Under the pieces are notes generated by a model. That model was not told the origin of the DNA, made no database searches, and saw only the letters and a program-made list of their open reading frames with translations. Source: Globomyces pollinis-pini (taxonomy: Eukaryota; Chytridiomycota; Chytridiomycetes; Rhizophydiales; Globomycetaceae). From it: 56,386 nt of DNA. Every line of letters begins with the position of its first letter. The stretch's first letter is position 1. Where the stretch lies: positions 1,821 through 58,206 of the forward strand of contig MU621185.1 in the NCBI GenBank assembly GCA_025399215.1, read 5' to 3'. This document shows, piece after piece, positions 22,157 through 49,221 of the stretch. The position numbers and the translations under genes are program-made.

Positions 22157-25100
22157 ATGAGAGATATTTTAGTGGTAGGATTATTCGACTACCAGTCAAC
22201 TGACCCAAATGCATTATGCTTCACTCAAGGAGACGTTATTCAGGTTTTAACAAGGTAAGTGCTTGCTTTCTTATATTAGATTGCCTTCCGGTTGGTGGGA
22301 TGGTGTCCTAAATGGAAAAAGAGGTAGCATTCATTCATTACTCTGATTGATTATATAGGTACAGTTTATTCAATTAAATTTTAGGTATTCGTTGTAATTT
22401 GGTTTAATTAAAGGTACATTAAGTCCAATTCGATTTAATTCTTTAGGTTGGTTTCCTTCAAATTACGTCTCTGCTCCAGAACAATCTCAAATTGTTAGTA
22501 CTCCTGATGAAGTTGTGGAAGATGAAATCTTAGCACCTGTCAAAGTAATTTAATCACCTGTTAACTCTTTTAGCTTCCTTTGAATTGGGGTATAAAGACA
22601 TTAGAAAATGGAAAACATTACTATTTTAACCTATTAACGAACGAAACAAAATGGTCAATCACAGGTCAAAAGTTAGATGGAAATCTTACACCAGATTATA
22701 ATATATCACTGGATATGGAAAATGTAGACCAACAGGACCACACCATTGTATATACTTGGCCTGGCCTATCCACTTATACTATATCAAAAATCCGAAAGTT
22801 ATTGAGAGAAACAAATGAAAAAGCAAAGGAAAAATATCTTGCTACAGCTTCTACAATTGTTGAAGCTATTCGGATCATGTTTTTAGTTTCTAACTGTTCG
22901 ACTAAAGAGTCAGGTATTTTAAAATTTAAACCCATATGAACATAAAACCTTTATTTCACAACGTATTGAACTAATTTTATAGAAATATTACAACCTCATC
23001 AGAATTTGAGGAAAGATCATGCACAAATTCTAAATTGCATCGCAAGAGTCATTTTGGCGGCGAAACTAGCATCTGCTATTTGGCCACCGCCAGATGCGAA
23101 TGATAAATTACTTCAAAGCGCCGATGAATTAGCCAGAGCAGTTCGGCAGTTTACAACAGAAGCAGCAGCCTTAAATTTACAAATCAAAGTCCCAAAAGCG
23201 AATGAATTGGCCGAATATCAAAAAAATTCTGATAATGAACACCAACACAAAAAAATGGACATTGAATTAATTGCACAACTGGAAGAAGTAGTTTTAGATA
23301 TTGTATCAGCTGTATCTGTAGTTAATATTCAACATGAGCCGGTCGCCACTGATGATGGAAGTCCAAAGTCAATCGTTACTTCAAGTTTAGCATCATTAGA
23401 TCTTGTCAAAGCCATGAAAGATATTATATCAAAAATAGGAACGTTTTTGGCTCTGATCGATACATTACCTCTGGATTCTTTGTTTGAAGATCTTACAATA
23501 GATTACAAAGTAAACAGATTGACACTTTTGAATTGTGTAACAGATTTGGTAATGGCCGCCCAAAATAATGCTCTCAATAAAACTCCAAAAGATCAAGAAA
23601 AAGTTCTCTTAGCAATAGAGTTGGTGGAGAAATCTGCAAAAGATTTGTTGATAAGTACAAAGTTTTTGGTAGAAGAAAAAGAGAACATGGAAAATTCAAC
23701 ATTAAAAACATATATTGAACAGTATAGCGTTCCTGGGCCACAAACAGCACAGAAAGGGATTCGACATGCTGCTTCAACCACTTTTAGTGAAGCGCAATCA
23801 CGACCAGCATCCATGTCGACTCATTCAGATCAAAGTCGACAAAATATTTTGTACCCAGATGCGCGTCAACGAAGGCCATCACTAGTTACGTACGAATCAA
23901 ACTATGGGAGCCCTATACCAGATATGAAGCGATTGTCAATGTCCAATCGTGTTTCTATGGCATATTCAGGAACGGGTTCTGATGGGCAGTCAAACAGCCC
24001 ACTTCTAGAAAGGTTTCAATTGCCTTATGGTGATGGTAGGCGAACTTCCGCTTCACGTTCTACTCGTATTTCACATATTAAACATCAGGATGCTTGGTAT
24101 ATGAAACCAGATTATGCCAATGAAGATTTAATGTACAATAACGATGGTTTGGTAAAAGGGGGAACTCTAAGTGCTTTAATTGCAAAGCTTACCAGTCATG
24201 AAAACCCAGATGACTATTTTGTGAGCTGTTTTTTGATGACTTATCGGACTTTCACTACCACAAAAGAATTTTTCAATATGCTAGAAGCCAGATTTGTTTT
24301 GGATATACCTACCAATCTTACTGAAGACGAATTGTTCATCTGGAGCGAATACAAACTGAAACCAATTAGGCAACGAGTCTATGCAGTACTAAAAGCATGG
24401 TTGGAATATCATATTCAAGATACACCAGAAGATCGACTTATTTTAGATGAATTGGAGATTTTTTCAGAAACAGTCATGAAACCATATATGGCAATTTCTT
24501 CACAAACAATATCTAGACTGATTGAAAAAAGAAAAATGCATGGTTTAAAACCATTTCGTACCACGCTACAAGGAAATCGTGATAAAGCTCCTTTACCAAT
24601 ATTACCTAAAAATGTTCGAAAGTTCAAATTATTTGAAATCGATCCACTAGAGCTTGCTCGGCAACTAACTATCATTGAAAGCCAGCTATTTCAAAATATT
24701 GAAACTATGGAGTTTCTTGCAAAGTCTTGGGGCTTAGCCAATTTCACATCTCCAAATGTCGAAGAAATGATATCGATGGCAAATCAAATTACAAATTGGG
24801 TCTCCTTCTCGATTTTACAAGTTCCTGAATCTAAAAAACGAGCCAGAGCAATAGGATTTTTCATTACCTTAGCAGATGTATGTTGAATTTTTTATAATTA
24901 AATTATAGAGATGCGCATCATTAAATAATTTTAACAGTATGATGGCTATTTTAGCTTCATTTAATTCCGCACCAATCCACCGTTTGGCAAAAACATGGGA
25001 TCAAGTTAGTCATCAATATTTGGATTTGTTAGATGCATTACGATCACTCATGTCGAGTGAAAAGAATTTTCAAACATATCGATCCGCTTTACGTCAAACT

Positions 25101-25456
25101 TCGCCCCCTTGTATTCCCTTCTTGGGATTCTATCTAACGGACCTTACATTCATCAAAGATGCCACCACTTCTCATTTAAAAGCTTTCCCAAATCTAATCA
25201 ATTTTTCCAAAATGATGAGAACTGCGGATGTATTGAAAGATACAATCAAATTCCGATCAACATATTCATTGAAATCTGTCCCAGAAATAGAATCATTTTT
25301 AATGGCTGAATTAAAAGCTAACCATGAAGATCAAGAATTGTATGATTTGTCCTTAAAACAAGAAGCAAGAAGGTAAATGTGAAACTATTGATAATGATTA
25401 GAGGTGCTGAAGATGAGAAGATGAAAACATTACTGACTGAGTCAGGCTTGTTTTAA
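22157..25456 (+). CDS. Cdc25-type Ras guanine-nucleotide exchange factor with SH3 and WW domains
   Basis: A 997-residue Ras-GEF. Domains in order: SH3 (about 5-65: LFDYQSTDPNALCFTQGDVI, LPSGWWDGVLNGKRG, WFPSNYV); WW (about 95-125: LPLNWGIKTLENGKHYYFNL, NETKW); a long helical and Ser-rich middle; RasGEF-N (GGTLSALIAKLTSHENPDDY, FLMTYRTFTT); and the catalytic Cdc25 domain (LFEIDPLELARQLTIIE, NFNSMMAI, PCIPFLGFYLTDLTFI). It should load Ras with GTP upstream of cAMP or MAPK signalling. Intron units are 25, an abutting array of 35+26+29+33, then 29, 69, 31 and 29 nt. Removing all of them gives one unbroken frame. The domain order matches fungal SH3-containing Cdc25 proteins. Confidence 0.88.
22324..22446 (+). 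other. Four abutting miniature introns in the Ras-GEF gene
   Basis: The 123-nt interruption of the SH3 domain divides exactly into four GT...AG units with no bases between them: 22324-22358 (35 nt), 22359-22384 (26), 22385-22413 (29) and 22414-22446 (33). Each junction reads AG|GT and each unit has the size of a normal single intron here. Removal of all four joins NGKRG to WFPSNYV. Confidence 0.8.
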
Positions 25457-25675
25457 ATAACAATCATTTTATGATTGAATTATCTCCATTATACTATTTT
25501 TTTAATACATTATCTCATCAAACGACTTTAAGGTTATTTAAGTGCTTATACCATGAACAATCAGTGAATTATAGAAATTCCGGAAAGAAAGAATCTTTGT
25601 AAATAATGCTTTAGTCATTCCTTTACATGATAAATACAAAACGTAAAATGCGAAAAAAGTATGATTTAGTTGAAA

Positions 25676-28718: not shown

Positions 28719-29888
28719 TTAATTCTTTTTGTTAAAGTAAGCCTTGATTTCATCACCACCAAAGACCATGCAAACAGTAAGGTAAACAGACAAACCAATA
28801 CGGGGAGTGACACCACGGTAAAAACCTCTAATTCCCTGTTCTTTCCAAATCCATTTCGCACAAGAAGCAATCGTCATGTTGGCAGGTCGAGAAGAATCTT
28901 TAATTTGAGATTGCATCTGGAGAGTTAATTTTAGAACTTTACGTTAACACGGATGACTTCAATAGGTTGGTTCCAGCATGCAAGGGCCCCACCAATGACG
29001 GAGGATGTGAGACGTTCAAGGATGGATAATTTTTGAGACCGAGTCGATTCTGGTCTGAGAGAGACGATTGTGGATTCGACTAGTCGGGAAATACCTAATC
29101 GAGAACCCCAATTGGTAAGTTGACGTAAAGCTGAAAGTTTAATAGAAATGAATGATTACCTAGAGTGAATGAGAAACAAAATGATGATACCGACAGCGTT
29201 GACACCTTTATTAATTCCAACAATGCCTTCGCGTTTAAAGATATCAGCTGCGACGGCCCAAGTAGATTGAGTAGGACCAGTAGATCGATGACGAGTGACT
29301 TCGACAGTTTTCATAAAAGTGCAGAAACCCATGGTAGTGTATGCTTGAAATTAGATGACAATAACATACCTTGGGCGACTCCACCACCCATTCCACCTAA
29401 CGATTAGAAATAGAACCAAACCCAAAACTCCGGCAGTAGTTTTGGATAACCCAAAAGTCGAAGCATGATATTCAATTTCTGAACTGGTGAACAGCAAGAC
29501 ACCTCCCTTTGTACTAGCTAAAGATAAAATATAAAGAGTATGTGGTACCTATAACGATGAGAAATTCAAAGGGGTACCTAAAAAGTTAGGATGGATGAAG
29601 TACCTTCGATCCAAGCCCAAGGGATTAGACCTCTCCAGAAACCTGGTAAGCCGGACTTTGCATGAATATTAGAGATAGCAGTGATCAATCCTTGGCCTTT
29701 ATTAGCGGCCATATGAGTTTTAACGACTTCAAATGGTTGACCAAGAGTAGAGACTTCAAAGACCTGAATAACAGCACCGATAGCGATGTTTTTGTAATTG
29801 ACAGGTTTCTAGATAGTGAGATACTGCGAAAGGTTACTTTTGAGACAGACATTTGAGGTAAGTTTTGATTTTTCAGTTCAGCAGACAT
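28719..29888 (-). CDS. YHM2: Mitochondrial citrate/2-oxoglutarate carrier Yhm2
   Basis: A 305-residue mitochondrial carrier matching Yhm2, which exchanges citrate for 2-oxoglutarate and feeds cytosolic NADPH. Carrier motifs: PFEVVKTHM in the first repeat and PIEVIRVNM in the third. Yhm2-specific strings are NYKNIAIGAVIQVFEVSTLG, FWRGLIPWAWIE, MGFCTFMKTVEVTRHRS, GINKGVNAV and RQLTNWGSR. Intron units read 29, an abutting 26+29+31 set, 25, 26, an abutting 31+29 pair and 26 nt; the spliced frame is continuous and length fits the family. It is divergent from the Sfi1-like gene over a 240-bp spacer. Confidence 0.9.
29131..29190 (-). other. Two abutting miniature introns in YHM2
   Basis: Read on the minus strand, the 60-nt interruption is two complete GT...AG units in direct contact: 29160-29190 (31 nt) then 29131-29159 (29 nt, with a TTAAAC-like branch region). 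Removing both joins GINKGVNAV to ALRQLTNWG in frame. Confidence 0.75.
29518..29603 (-). other. Three abutting miniature introns in YHM2
   Basis: On the minus strand an 86-nt interruption splits exactly into 29578-29603 (26 nt, branch CCTAAC), 29549-29577 (29 nt) and 29518-29548 (31 nt). All three begin GTAC and end AG, with AG|GT at each contact. Removal joins PWAWIE to ASTKGG, as conserved in Yhm2 proteins. Confidence 0.8.
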
Positions 29889-39455: not shown

Positions 39456-40793
39456 TTATTTCCAATTCTTCAATTGAGCACAATTAGGCATGTCCATTTT
39501 TTGAGCACGTTCAAGCAAGTCCTTGTCAACGGAAAACCAACTGTTTGCTTGACGGATATAATGTGATTGCGTTTCTCGTTCTCTACTACATTGAATTCGA
39601 ATATGTTGTAAATACTACAGATTAAAATAACAAAAAATTATTACATCCCCTTCCACTTGATCATTCAATTGTTTTTGTTTTCTAGTACTTGGAAATCTTT
39701 TCTGATAAGATTTTGCATTGACATAGTATTTAATATTATTTGGTTTGGAGACTTTTTCCACATTATAATCGTATGATTGACGGAATGAAAATGGATCGTC
39801 TTCACTTGAAAATATGGAAACAGCTGTCAGAAGTATTAGCAATAAAATGGGTAATAGTTGGAAAACAGTTGCTGGTAAATTATCTCCTGGAGCATTACGT
39901 TGAGCATTTCTAGTCCGTGTTCGAAATTGAGGGCCAGCATTAAAAGCTTAAAAAATTAGAGAGATTAAAAGTTGTACCAAAGCCTGGACCACCCATTCCA
40001 CCAAAGGCACCCCCACCCATGAACATTCTGATTAAATCTTCTGGTGATAATTCTCCTTGAAATTGATGATGTCCTCCAAAACCATGTCCAAATCCAGGAT
40101 GGAAACCTCCACCTCCACCTCCTCTGGAATTTGATTCACTGTCTATACCGAATCGATCGTAATTCGATCTTTTGTCTGTTTCTCCTAATACAGTCCAAGC
40201 ATGACTTAGCGCTAATAATAATGAAAAAAAAAGATGATTTATACCCTATTATAAAATTAAAGAAGATTTTATACCTTGAACGCTTCATCAGTACCTGGGG
40301 CCCCACATTTATCAGGATGAAATTTCAAAGCAGCCTTTTTATGAGAATCATTTCAAGATAACCTTTCTGTAAGCTTTTTTTATATCATTATCAGAACAAG
40401 ATTTTTCCAAACCCAAGACTCCATATAAATCACCTTTTGATTTATAAGCCAATATTTTTTTAATTCCAGCAACTTGTTCTTGAGTATATGGTCTAGTATC
40501 AGGTTTTGAATTTGGTTTATTTTCAACTTTCTGATCATTTGAAGTTTTTTGAGTTTGTTTTTTTGGATTTGCTTTTATAAAAGAAAACTAATAAAATTAA
40601 TATCCTGATATGAATATGAATATGAATAGTATATCAATTAATAAGTATCAATAATTAGTACCCATTTTAAAGCATTTTCAGATTCGTGTAATCTTATACT
40701 TTTTTCAGCGAATTTGATAGCAGCGATAGTATCACCTTCATGATACTTTTTTTTTGAAATTTCTAAACATCTTTCAGCTTCGTCTTTATTCAT
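39456..40793 (-). CDS. ER-membrane J-protein of the DNAJB12/DNAJB14 type
   Basis: A 370-residue Hsp40. The N-terminal helix MNKDEAERCLEISKKKYHEG is typical of DNAJB12-like proteins, followed by the J domain (LYGVLGLEKSCSDNDIKKAY, HPD in KFHPDKC, then KALSHAWTVLG and SNYDRFG), a Gly/Phe-rich region, one membrane span (FQLLPILLLILLTAVSIF) and a DUF1977 domain. It should recruit Hsp70 to ER membrane-protein quality control. Introns on the minus strand: 40588-40661 (74 nt), 40335-40362 (28), 40246-40274 (29), 40212-40244 (33), 39947-39977 (31) and 39615-39644 (30). The coding length is a multiple of three only if the lone base 40245 is an exon. Start ATG at 40791-40793. Confidence 0.87.
40212..40274 (-). 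other. Two introns flanking a one-nucleotide exon
   Basis: On the minus strand, intron 40246-40274 (29 nt, GTATAA...ATAATAG) is followed by a single G (complement of base 40245) and intron 40212-40244 (33 nt, GTATAAATC...TTATTAG). Codons join as AAG + G + CG to give K-A in AFKALSHAWTV, the expected J-domain helix. Treating the 63 nt as one intron gives AAG CGC TAA, an immediate stop. Confidence 0.75.
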
Positions 40794-48105: not shown

Positions 48106-49221
48106 ATGAGTAGTGGAATAACACAAAGAAGAAGACATAATGTTGAAGAAACGCCCGTGGAACCGGCACCTGGACCTTCAGCTTTTGTACCTGAAGATTA
48201 TGATGAGGATGATGTCAAAGGAAATAAGGGGAAGGATTTAACCTTAATGGAAGAAATTTTATTATTAGGACTTAAAGATAGTGAAGTAAATGTCAGTTGT
48301 TTAGCTTAATTCAAGGGTTTATTGTCATTTTGGAATGATAATATTTCTTATGTATGCATTGTGACTATTTTTTTATATCTTTAACTAGGTATTTGGGAAA
48401 TTATGTTCATTAACATTAGGTAATTATCTTTATAAGCAGAATTATTTTTATGATACTCCTTTTGCTTCTTCAGCGCTTTGTTTTAACACCATATAGGTTT
48501 TACGAGGAACTATTTTAATAGAATTATCATTCAGAGGACGAATTAATGTTGTCAAGGATCCAAGGAAACCACCATTTCATGAAAGAATGATTCAAGTCAT
48601 AGATGAACGATTAACTGGAGAAGTTTTGTTAGATGAAACTTTGCGATACATTAAAACAGATACCGATTCCATTGCCAATTGGATTGACCTATTGAGTGGT
48701 ATTGAGTTGTTAAGTTGATATCAATTAGGGGAAACTTGGAATTTATATAAAATTGGTTATCAATTAAAACAAGTTCGAGAAAGAATTGCTAAAGGATTGG
48801 TGGATAAAGGTGTGCTTCGTACCGAAAAGAAGAGGTATTTTTTATTCTTGTGTTTAACCTTTAGCTTTGTTTTATTTGATGTACCAACACATCCTGTATC
48901 AAATCCCAAAGTGAAAGAAGCTTTAATTCAGCGAATAGTAGATTGCTTATTGGGAAGAGGTGCAGCACCTAATAGAAGAACCATTGCTTGTGTTTGTGCA
49001 GCATACGCTGCCAATGTACTAGAAAATGCATTTGTTGGACTCTCTCATGCACAACGAGAACAAGCCTTTTTGAAAGTAGATGAGTACCTTAAACAACATG
49101 CAGATTTAACGGAAAAATCCAAATCCATTGGAACAACAGAAGTTATGGCAGGGTATGATATTTTCTTGTACTAATACACAGTGTTTTTATGGTGTACTCT
49201 AAGATGGATAGTATACTTTAA
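48106..49221 (+). CDS. VPS74: Golgi PI4P-binding protein Vps74/GOLPH3
   Basis: A 283-residue Vps74/GOLPH3 protein that binds PI4P and retains glycosyltransferases in the Golgi. It begins MSSGITQRRRHN with an acidic stretch, then the core LTLMEEILLLGLKDSEGLLS, NDNISYVLRGTILIEL, the PI4P-pocket region INVVKDPRKPPFHERM, QVRERIAKGLVDKGVLRTEK and the C-terminal helix with ANVLENAFVGL. It ends VFMVYSKMDSIL after a 29-nt intron. Intron units: 30, an abutting 37+31+77 set, 30, 30 and 29 nt. Length and motifs fit the family. An upstream in-frame ATG exists but is not conserved. Confidence 0.92.
48352..48496 (+). other. Three abutting introns in VPS74
   Basis: The 145-nt interruption between NDNISY and VLRGTILIE divides into three GT...AG units in contact: 48352-48388 (37 nt, with TTAACTAG end), 48389-48419 (31 nt, with TTAAC branch) and 48420-48496 (77 nt, with TTAAC branch). 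Both junctions read AG|GT. Confidence 0.8.

Follow-up and report, generated by a model that had tools for sequence, protein, structure and literature searches.

The J-protein gene and its two-intron array

The window, the whole stretch of 56,386 nucleotides of Globomyces pollinis-pini DNA analyzed here, carries on its minus strand a gene whose structure, Pfam matches, and homologs identify its product as a J-protein of the DNAJB12/14 type. An N-terminal extension is followed by a J domain (DnaJ, PF00226, 75.8 bits) and a DUF1977 domain (PF09320, 85.5 bits), which is the plan of DNAJB12/14, and alignment with homologs places the HPDK of the J domain where it is expected, so that HPD and DUF1977 occur together as in proteins of this type. 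A hydrophobic stretch, LLPILLLILLTAVSIF, lies between the two domains; the DNAJB12/14 family is located in the ER membrane. The locus was found once in its assembly, and a search of the same genome for a second copy or allele returned none besides the locus itself. Scans of the window against Rfam (gathering threshold) and for tRNAs gave no match. The features of the gene discussed here are as follows.

39456..40793, minus strand: DNAJB12/14-like J-protein gene, seven exons, 370 amino acids, J domain and DUF1977
40661-40588, minus strand: intron 1, 74 nt
40275..40334, minus strand: 60-nt exon upstream of the two-intron array, ending ..GATGAAGCGTTCAAG (D-E-A-F-K)
40246..40274, minus strand: 29-nt intron, phase 0, GTATAA..AATAG, full sequence GTATAAAATCTTCTTTAATTTTATAATAG
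40245..40245, minus strand: predicted one-nucleotide exon (G), opening the Ala codon GCG
40212..40244, minus strand: 33-nt intron, phase 1, GTATAA..TTAG, full sequence GTATAAATCATCTTTTTTTTTCATTATTATTAG
39978..40211, minus strand: 234-nt exon downstream of the two-intron array, beginning CGCTAAGTCATGC (..A-L-S-H-A-W)

An alternative acceptor for intron 1 at 40572 (90 nt) was rejected, as it puts the frame off by one.

A sequence-only reading of this stretch had placed a 29-nt and a 33-nt intron around a single G, and these coordinates hold on the minus strand. An AG precedes the G at 40245 and a GT follows it (contact AG/G/GT), and this G is needed for both the reading frame and the conserved protein. 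With the G kept, the coding sequence is 1113 nt long, a multiple of three as had been claimed, and encodes 370 amino acids in seven exons. With the G skipped, AAG is joined to CG and reads AAG CGC TAA, the early stop that the same reading had foreseen. Its claim that AAG GCG CTA (K-A-L) restores a conserved helix of the J domain is likewise borne out, helix III being complete and gapless only when both introns are removed and the G is kept. Between the outer sites of the array there is a single AG and a single GT, so the G is the only possible middle exon with GT-AG sites. The 33-nt intron (40244-40212) has a length that is a multiple of three and is free of stops; its retention would therefore stay in frame and add GINHLFFSLLL. 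We put the probability that the G at 40245 is indeed an exon, as predicted, at about 0.85, with the comparison of homologs doing most of the work in this case.

Splicing solutions, homologs, and rival readings

We enumerated every way of splicing one or two introns of at least 15 nt out of the stretch between DKCGAP and HAWTVL, allowing GT or GC at the donor and AG at the acceptor. The sole solution that retains all conserved residues is 29 nt + G + 33 nt, which reads DKCGAPGTDEAFKALS; among one-intron solutions (GT or GC donors, at least 15 nt), none keeps DKCGAPGTDEAFKALS, so the junction does not behave as an ordinary single intron. The one-nucleotide exon is the best supported reading, as the sequence-only reading had it, but the latter had overlooked that four one-intron GT-AG readings also keep the frame: introns of 95, 83, and 77 nt, and the 29-nt intron alone. 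Each comes at a cost to the protein, with the 29-nt intron alone adding 11 residues, the 83-nt intron losing GTDEAFK, the 77-nt intron losing FKALS, and the 95-nt intron losing more. Further solutions with GC donors or two-intron combinations each lose residues or keep an insert. The whole-gene model score is 70.3 for the one-nucleotide exon, 65.4 with the 33-nt stretch kept, and 60.1, 52.7, and 50.4 for the 83-, 77-, and 95-nt introns, respectively; a single 63-nt intron scores -22.6 and leaves eight stops. The Pfam DnaJ match reaches 75.8 bits with the one-nucleotide exon vs 64.3 bits with the 33-nt stretch kept.

Homologs of the J-protein were compared by how far HPDK lies from the YDxxG motif (the spacing) in the 120 listed of 165 found. 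A spacing of 28, which corresponds to the model with the one-nucleotide exon, is found in 86 of these 120; the other spacings are 34 (ten proteins), 29 (two), 26 (one), 37 (one, P0021), and 21 (one, P0001). The proteins with spacings of 34, 29, and 26 fall within P0106-P0119 and are, by length and listed domains, mostly other DnaJ types, as are a few of the 86 with a spacing of 28. Nineteen of the 120 do not fit the spacing expression; a printed stretch is available for 14 of them, and in 13 of these 14 the EAFK region is, by eye, continuous, with no visible insert or loss. In an alignment with 16 homologs, the 15 other than P0001 have GTDEAFKA or a close variant, ungapped, and the solved J domain of human DNAJB12 (2ctp) aligns without a gap to the protein read with the one-nucleotide exon.

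The closest protein, at 98% identity in the search table (best 120 of 165), belongs to Globomyces sp. JEL0801, a chytrid of the order Rhizophydiales. Its public model, P0001, does not use the one-nucleotide exon: it is short of GTDEAFK and nothing else at this junction, the loss expected from the 83-nt intron. The two J-proteins differ by two substitutions (NAQRNAPGD in the window vs NAQHNAAGD in JEL0801) and the REV3 proteins described below are identical at 1850 of 1910 aligned residues; these differences indicate that JEL0801 is a genome distinct from that of the window. A DNAJB12-like protein of Chytriomyces hyalinus (P0021) is nine residues longer at the very position of the array, with the insert between EAFK and AISHAF. 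This insert may be a short intron retained in that model, in which case an intron at this codon would be old.

To place the two introns among those of the genome, we used a self-trained gene finder with no minimum exon length, trained on 256 kb (the window together with 100 kb from contig C1 and 100 kb from contig C2). It predicts 99 genes with 628 introns of median length 29 nt, 585 of which measure 23-39 nt; a single 63-nt intron would thus be atypical here. Both array introns are ordinary for this genome: the percentiles of the 29-nt and 33-nt introns among the 628 are 0.76 and 0.51 for the donor, 0.79 and 0.66 for the acceptor, and 0.79 and 0.74 for content, and those of their branch-like motifs among 570 short introns are 0.89 and 0.58. 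The gene finder picked the 29 + 1 + 33 structure unforced, with a small circularity in that the J-protein gene had supplied four of the six seed introns, the 29-nt intron among them. The exon at 40245 is the sole internal exon shorter than 5 nt among the 540 predicted in the 256 kb. The gene finder also fused the J-protein gene to its downstream neighbor by a 179-nt "intron", an artifact, since the J-protein gene has an in-frame stop codon at 39456-39458. In a control with an artificial frameshift next to each of 400 introns, a nearby exon of 1-2 nt "explained" 12 cases, two of these being the real site; spurious rescue amounts to about 10 of 400, or about 2.5%, and the gene-finder model alone therefore does not prove a one-nucleotide exon.

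Of the rival readings, splicing of the 29-nt intron alone would leave the 33-nt stretch as exon, with GINHLFFSLLL added to helix III in all products or in an alternative isoform. The junction would then read AAG-GGTATAAATC, in frame and stop-free, with GT-AG sites only; the J domain is still found by Pfam at 64.3 bits, the model score of 65.4 lies only 4.9 under the best, and the insert annotated in P0021 sits at the same point in a relative. However, the corresponding spacing of 39 occurs in none of the 101 homologs that fitted the expression (of 120 listed), the 33-nt stretch ends exactly at a good donor and a good acceptor and has the typical length and a T-rich content, and 11 mostly hydrophobic residues would break into helix III, all of which makes this reading improbable. 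An error of sequencing or assembly, or decay of the gene, would offer a different way out: if the true genome were one base longer, one intron of 63-64 nt would suffice. A frame problem is the classic sign of such an error, and the simulated frameshifts that received spurious exons show how it could mislead. Against it stand the otherwise intact J-protein gene, the atypical length of a 63-nt intron in this genome, and the odd model of JEL0801, a distinct genome compared here by its proteins, which is most easily explained if its DNA has the same frame; we regard an error or decay as very unlikely.

The protein model of JEL0801 itself implies a single 83-nt phase-1 intron (40294-40212), which would remove, besides the array, the following stretch.

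40275..40294, minus strand: stretch lost with the 83-nt intron besides the array, first base 40294; deletes GTDEAFK

This intron is canonical and in frame, and at this junction it reproduces the public model P0001 (GCCCCAG joined to CGCTAAG), but it deletes seven residues of helix III, its spacing occurs among the 120 listed homologs in P0001 alone, and its model score is below that of the one-nucleotide exon, with the 77-nt and 95-nt readings lower still. We hold it to be more doubtful even than a sequencing error. Least credible of all is one intron with non-canonical ends (GT-TA or TA-AG): from the sequence it would yield the same product, AAG GCG CTA, yet it calls for unusual splice sites where two ordinary introns explain everything, and we know of no intron class with such ends.

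Arrays of abutting introns and predicted two-nucleotide exons

Among predicted introns 45-160 nt long, 7 of 35 can be cut without remainder into GT..AG units measuring 22-38 nt and joined by AG/GT contacts, as compared with a mean of 0.55 and a maximum of 3 in 300 dinucleotide shuffles put through the same test. Intron arrays with AG/GT contacts are thus real in this genome. Across the whole genome, the pattern AGGTAW..TAG/GTAW..TAG has 281 matches vs 91 for the reversed pattern. Contacts with additional bases are not enriched genome-wide: one-base contacts number 6 vs 17 reversed for G and 6 vs 40 reversed for A, C, or T, and two-base contacts 14 vs 90 reversed, where the patterns describe one donor and acceptor type only and overlapping matches are counted apart. 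The zero-base contact is the rule, and contacts of one or two bases are rare exceptions and not an enriched class.

Several arrays can be followed unit by unit. One on contig C1 reads 25+27+29+28+29. Within the window, the genes at 28719-29888 (minus strand), 22157-25567 (plus strand), and 48106-49174 (plus strand) have predicted introns of 86, 60, 90, and 145 nt. Those of 86, 60, and 90 nt are made up entirely of abutting GT..AG units (26+29+31, 31+29, and 35+26+29, respectively), and the 145-nt intron has AG/GT contacts at 37 and 68. The arrays 26+29+31 and 31+29 lie within one gene and 35+26+29 in another. An array of near-identical 27-nt intron-like units (GTATACTCTTTGTTGTTTTAATGTTAG and variants; G000:C68:15902-16038, plus strand) looks like a tandem duplication of a whole intron unit.

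The 29-nt and 33-nt introns of the J-protein gene reach a likeness score of 13.0, above 99.7% of 5000 randomly drawn intron pairs (mean 3.8), which we grade as suggestive because both introns are T- and A-rich. Array neighbors in general are slightly more alike than the neighboring introns of a gene, with means of 5.5 (14 pairs) vs 4.0 (473 pairs). A link between the single G and arrays of this kind had been proposed from the sequence. It is made plausible by the AG/GT arrays, the alike introns, and two sites with predicted two-nucleotide exons, with the reservation that AG/N/GT and AG/NN/GT contacts both fall below the reversed control.

The pattern matches for contacts of one or two bases comprise 26 rows, of which 13 were examined with the gene finder: six loci from the G-contact pattern (two at the same place) and seven chosen as intron-like. 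For three of the 13, namely the J-protein gene and the following two genes, the gene finder placed an exon of 1-2 nt at the pattern site.

G000:C48:45537-52823 (loci L037, L039), minus strand: REV3 (DNA polymerase zeta), predicted 2-nt exon CG between 26-nt and 28-nt introns
L041:1370-1944 (G000:C215), plus strand: RidA/2-aminomuconate-deaminase-like gene, predicted 2-nt exon GA between 32-nt and 27-nt introns

In the remaining examined matches the gene finder chose no exon of 1-2 nt at the pattern site; those on C106 and C7 lie in predicted intergenic DNA. On C51 (L038, G000:C51:4300-7300), a gene model has introns of 45 and 92 nt and 1-nt exons, and its 92-nt intron contains AG/GT and AG/TT/GT contacts. 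These exons were left uncounted, as the model is poorly supported and they lie away from the pattern site.

The predicted CG exon of REV3 completes the zinc finger CLVCNILCVEAICDSC (PF14260, 45.9 bits). Measured between the two CxxC pairs in the 120 homologs listed of 1000 found, the spacing of 8 given by the CG model occurs in 19, including Boothiomyces, Spizellomyces, and Rhizophlyctis; the other spacings are 10 in 84, 12 in ten, 11 in three, and 13 in one (Kappamyces), with three unfitted. In JEL0801, the REV3 model (P0121) runs into the 26-nt intron and ends NILCVEGMNMFFNI, without a zinc finger. Other in-frame GT-AG solutions are a 63-nt intron, at the cost of VEA, and a 57-nt intron, at the cost of the second CxxC pair, and two further in-frame solutions pair the CG exon with other sites. 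The 26-nt and 28-nt introns are not alike (score 4.0).

The predicted GA exon of the RidA-like gene completes a W-E-G-V motif, as in its closest relatives P0241 (NPDNQSWEGVIE) and P0243 (NPDNQSWEGVVE), and all in-frame solutions found use this exon. Among the 120 homologs listed of 400 found, WEGV occurs in 19 and [WYH]xG[VA] in the same region in 118; these counts use the printed motifs, and those from the spacing expression were set aside, as it hit the wrong stretch in many rows. Together, the REV3 and RidA-like genes suggest that two-nucleotide exons recur in this genome; with sites chosen by pattern and by eye, they bear on the recurrence of the class and not on its frequency.

Possible mechanism and relation to known systems

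In the mechanism that we propose, the G at 40245 is a single-nucleotide exon used constitutively, and the intron on either side is recognized by intron definition as a unit of ~30 nt. The two introns would be removed successively, since with a single exon base between them the first acceptor and the second donor could not be bound together, and either order would yield AAG/G/CGCTA. Just ahead of the second donor, the three bases are AGG whether or not the first intron has been removed, which leaves the donor context unchanged. Pairing of the outer sites would produce a 63-nt intron and an immediate stop, an outcome made unlikely by the intron lengths of this genome; stepwise splicing, by way of AAG GCG CTA (K-A-L), would restore helix III in the J domain of a DNAJB12/14-type co-chaperone. 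Intron definition for short introns has been concluded in filamentous ascomycetes (PMC5639578), and its operation in this chytrid is an assumption of the model.

The site could represent an off-by-one version of the abutting AG/GT arrays. It probably arose when a copy of the neighboring intron landed one base from an existing intron or, alternatively, when an AG/GT contact became AG/G/GT with the loss of one exon base. A simple tandem duplication is unlikely to be the sole origin, because the mRNA would then gain a base unless one was lost as well. The sequence, the frame, the conservation, the intron statistics, and the presence of arrays are observations, whereas splicing as such, its order, constitutive use of the exon, and its origin are inferred from them; the explanation by a one-nucleotide exon seems to us highly probable.

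That a one-nucleotide exon is known from a plant gene had been mentioned in the sequence-only reading and agrees with the literature, where a fungal case has been published as well (PMC4674806; PMC12940212). In Arabidopsis thaliana APC11, a single A lies inside a 422-nt intervening sequence, as demonstrated with cDNA and mutant reporters (PMC4674806). Both APC11 and the site at 40245 have one base between AG and GT that is needed for the frame, and the APC11 exon is constitutive; whereas APC11 is documented by cDNA and mutants over a 422-nt stretch, the site at 40245 spans 63 nt and is known from its sequence (PMC4674806). Closer still is Fusarium CYP621A, for which 18 RNA reads support a single-nucleotide exon that its authors describe as the second case known and the first from a fungal gene, suggesting that a cryptic AGGGT exon compensated a lost base (PMC12940212). 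The two fungal sites share the identical AGGGT contact, a conserved motif that needs the exon, and gene models that missed it (PMC12940212). They differ in that the intervening sequence of CYP621A measures 139 nt in F. graminearum (median intron 56 nt), in contrast to introns of 29 and 33 nt here, and in that the accessible text on CYP621A mentions no intron arrays, which the present genome has (PMC12940212).

Stwintrons of the Pezizomycotina likewise involve two introns, consecutive removal, and intron definition, but their internal intron breaks a splice element of the external one, whereas the two introns at 40245 have complete ends with one exon base between them (PMC5639578). Their GT..AG ends are complete, donor and acceptor are uninterrupted, and the G is exonic, with the branch element placed by motif prediction, so we do not read the site as a stwintron. 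Drosophila ratchet points, or zero-nucleotide exons, combine an adjoining acceptor and donor with stepwise removal, and the AG/GT arrays of this genome resemble chains of them; ratchet points lie in long introns and leave no base, in contrast to the units of ~30 nt and the one base left at 40245 (PMC8605326). With its AG/G/GT contact, the site itself is not a ratchet point, although AG/GT arrays occur elsewhere in the genome. A one-nucleotide exon of mitochondrial cox1 has been reported in placozoans. A phrase search found no nuclear one-nucleotide exons beyond the plant and Fusarium cases and a stricter one had no hits, which does not establish priority, and the literature listings on chytrid short introns and adjacent introns held nothing on point.

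The predicted exon at 40245 would thus be of a known type in a setting that is new as far as we have seen, that of ultrashort introns and arrays: a further one-nucleotide exon, flanked by a 29-nt and a 33-nt intron, in a genome where introns abut in chains. Contacts of zero, one, and two bases could be compared in one organism, making the use of splice sites one base apart directly testable. On a broader view, to which we give even odds, exons of zero, one, and two nucleotides would form a natural series in the Globomyces lineage, in which ultrashort introns multiply into arrays spliced unit by unit and small shifts of the contact give rise to the smallest exons. If so, the one-nucleotide exon would serve as a built-in reporter that array units are excised singly and not as one long intron, and the arrays would be a testable birthplace of microexons. 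Such sites also pose a problem for annotation, as seen in the nearest annotated genome, whose DNAJB12-like model is without seven conserved residues and whose REV3 model is without its zinc finger.
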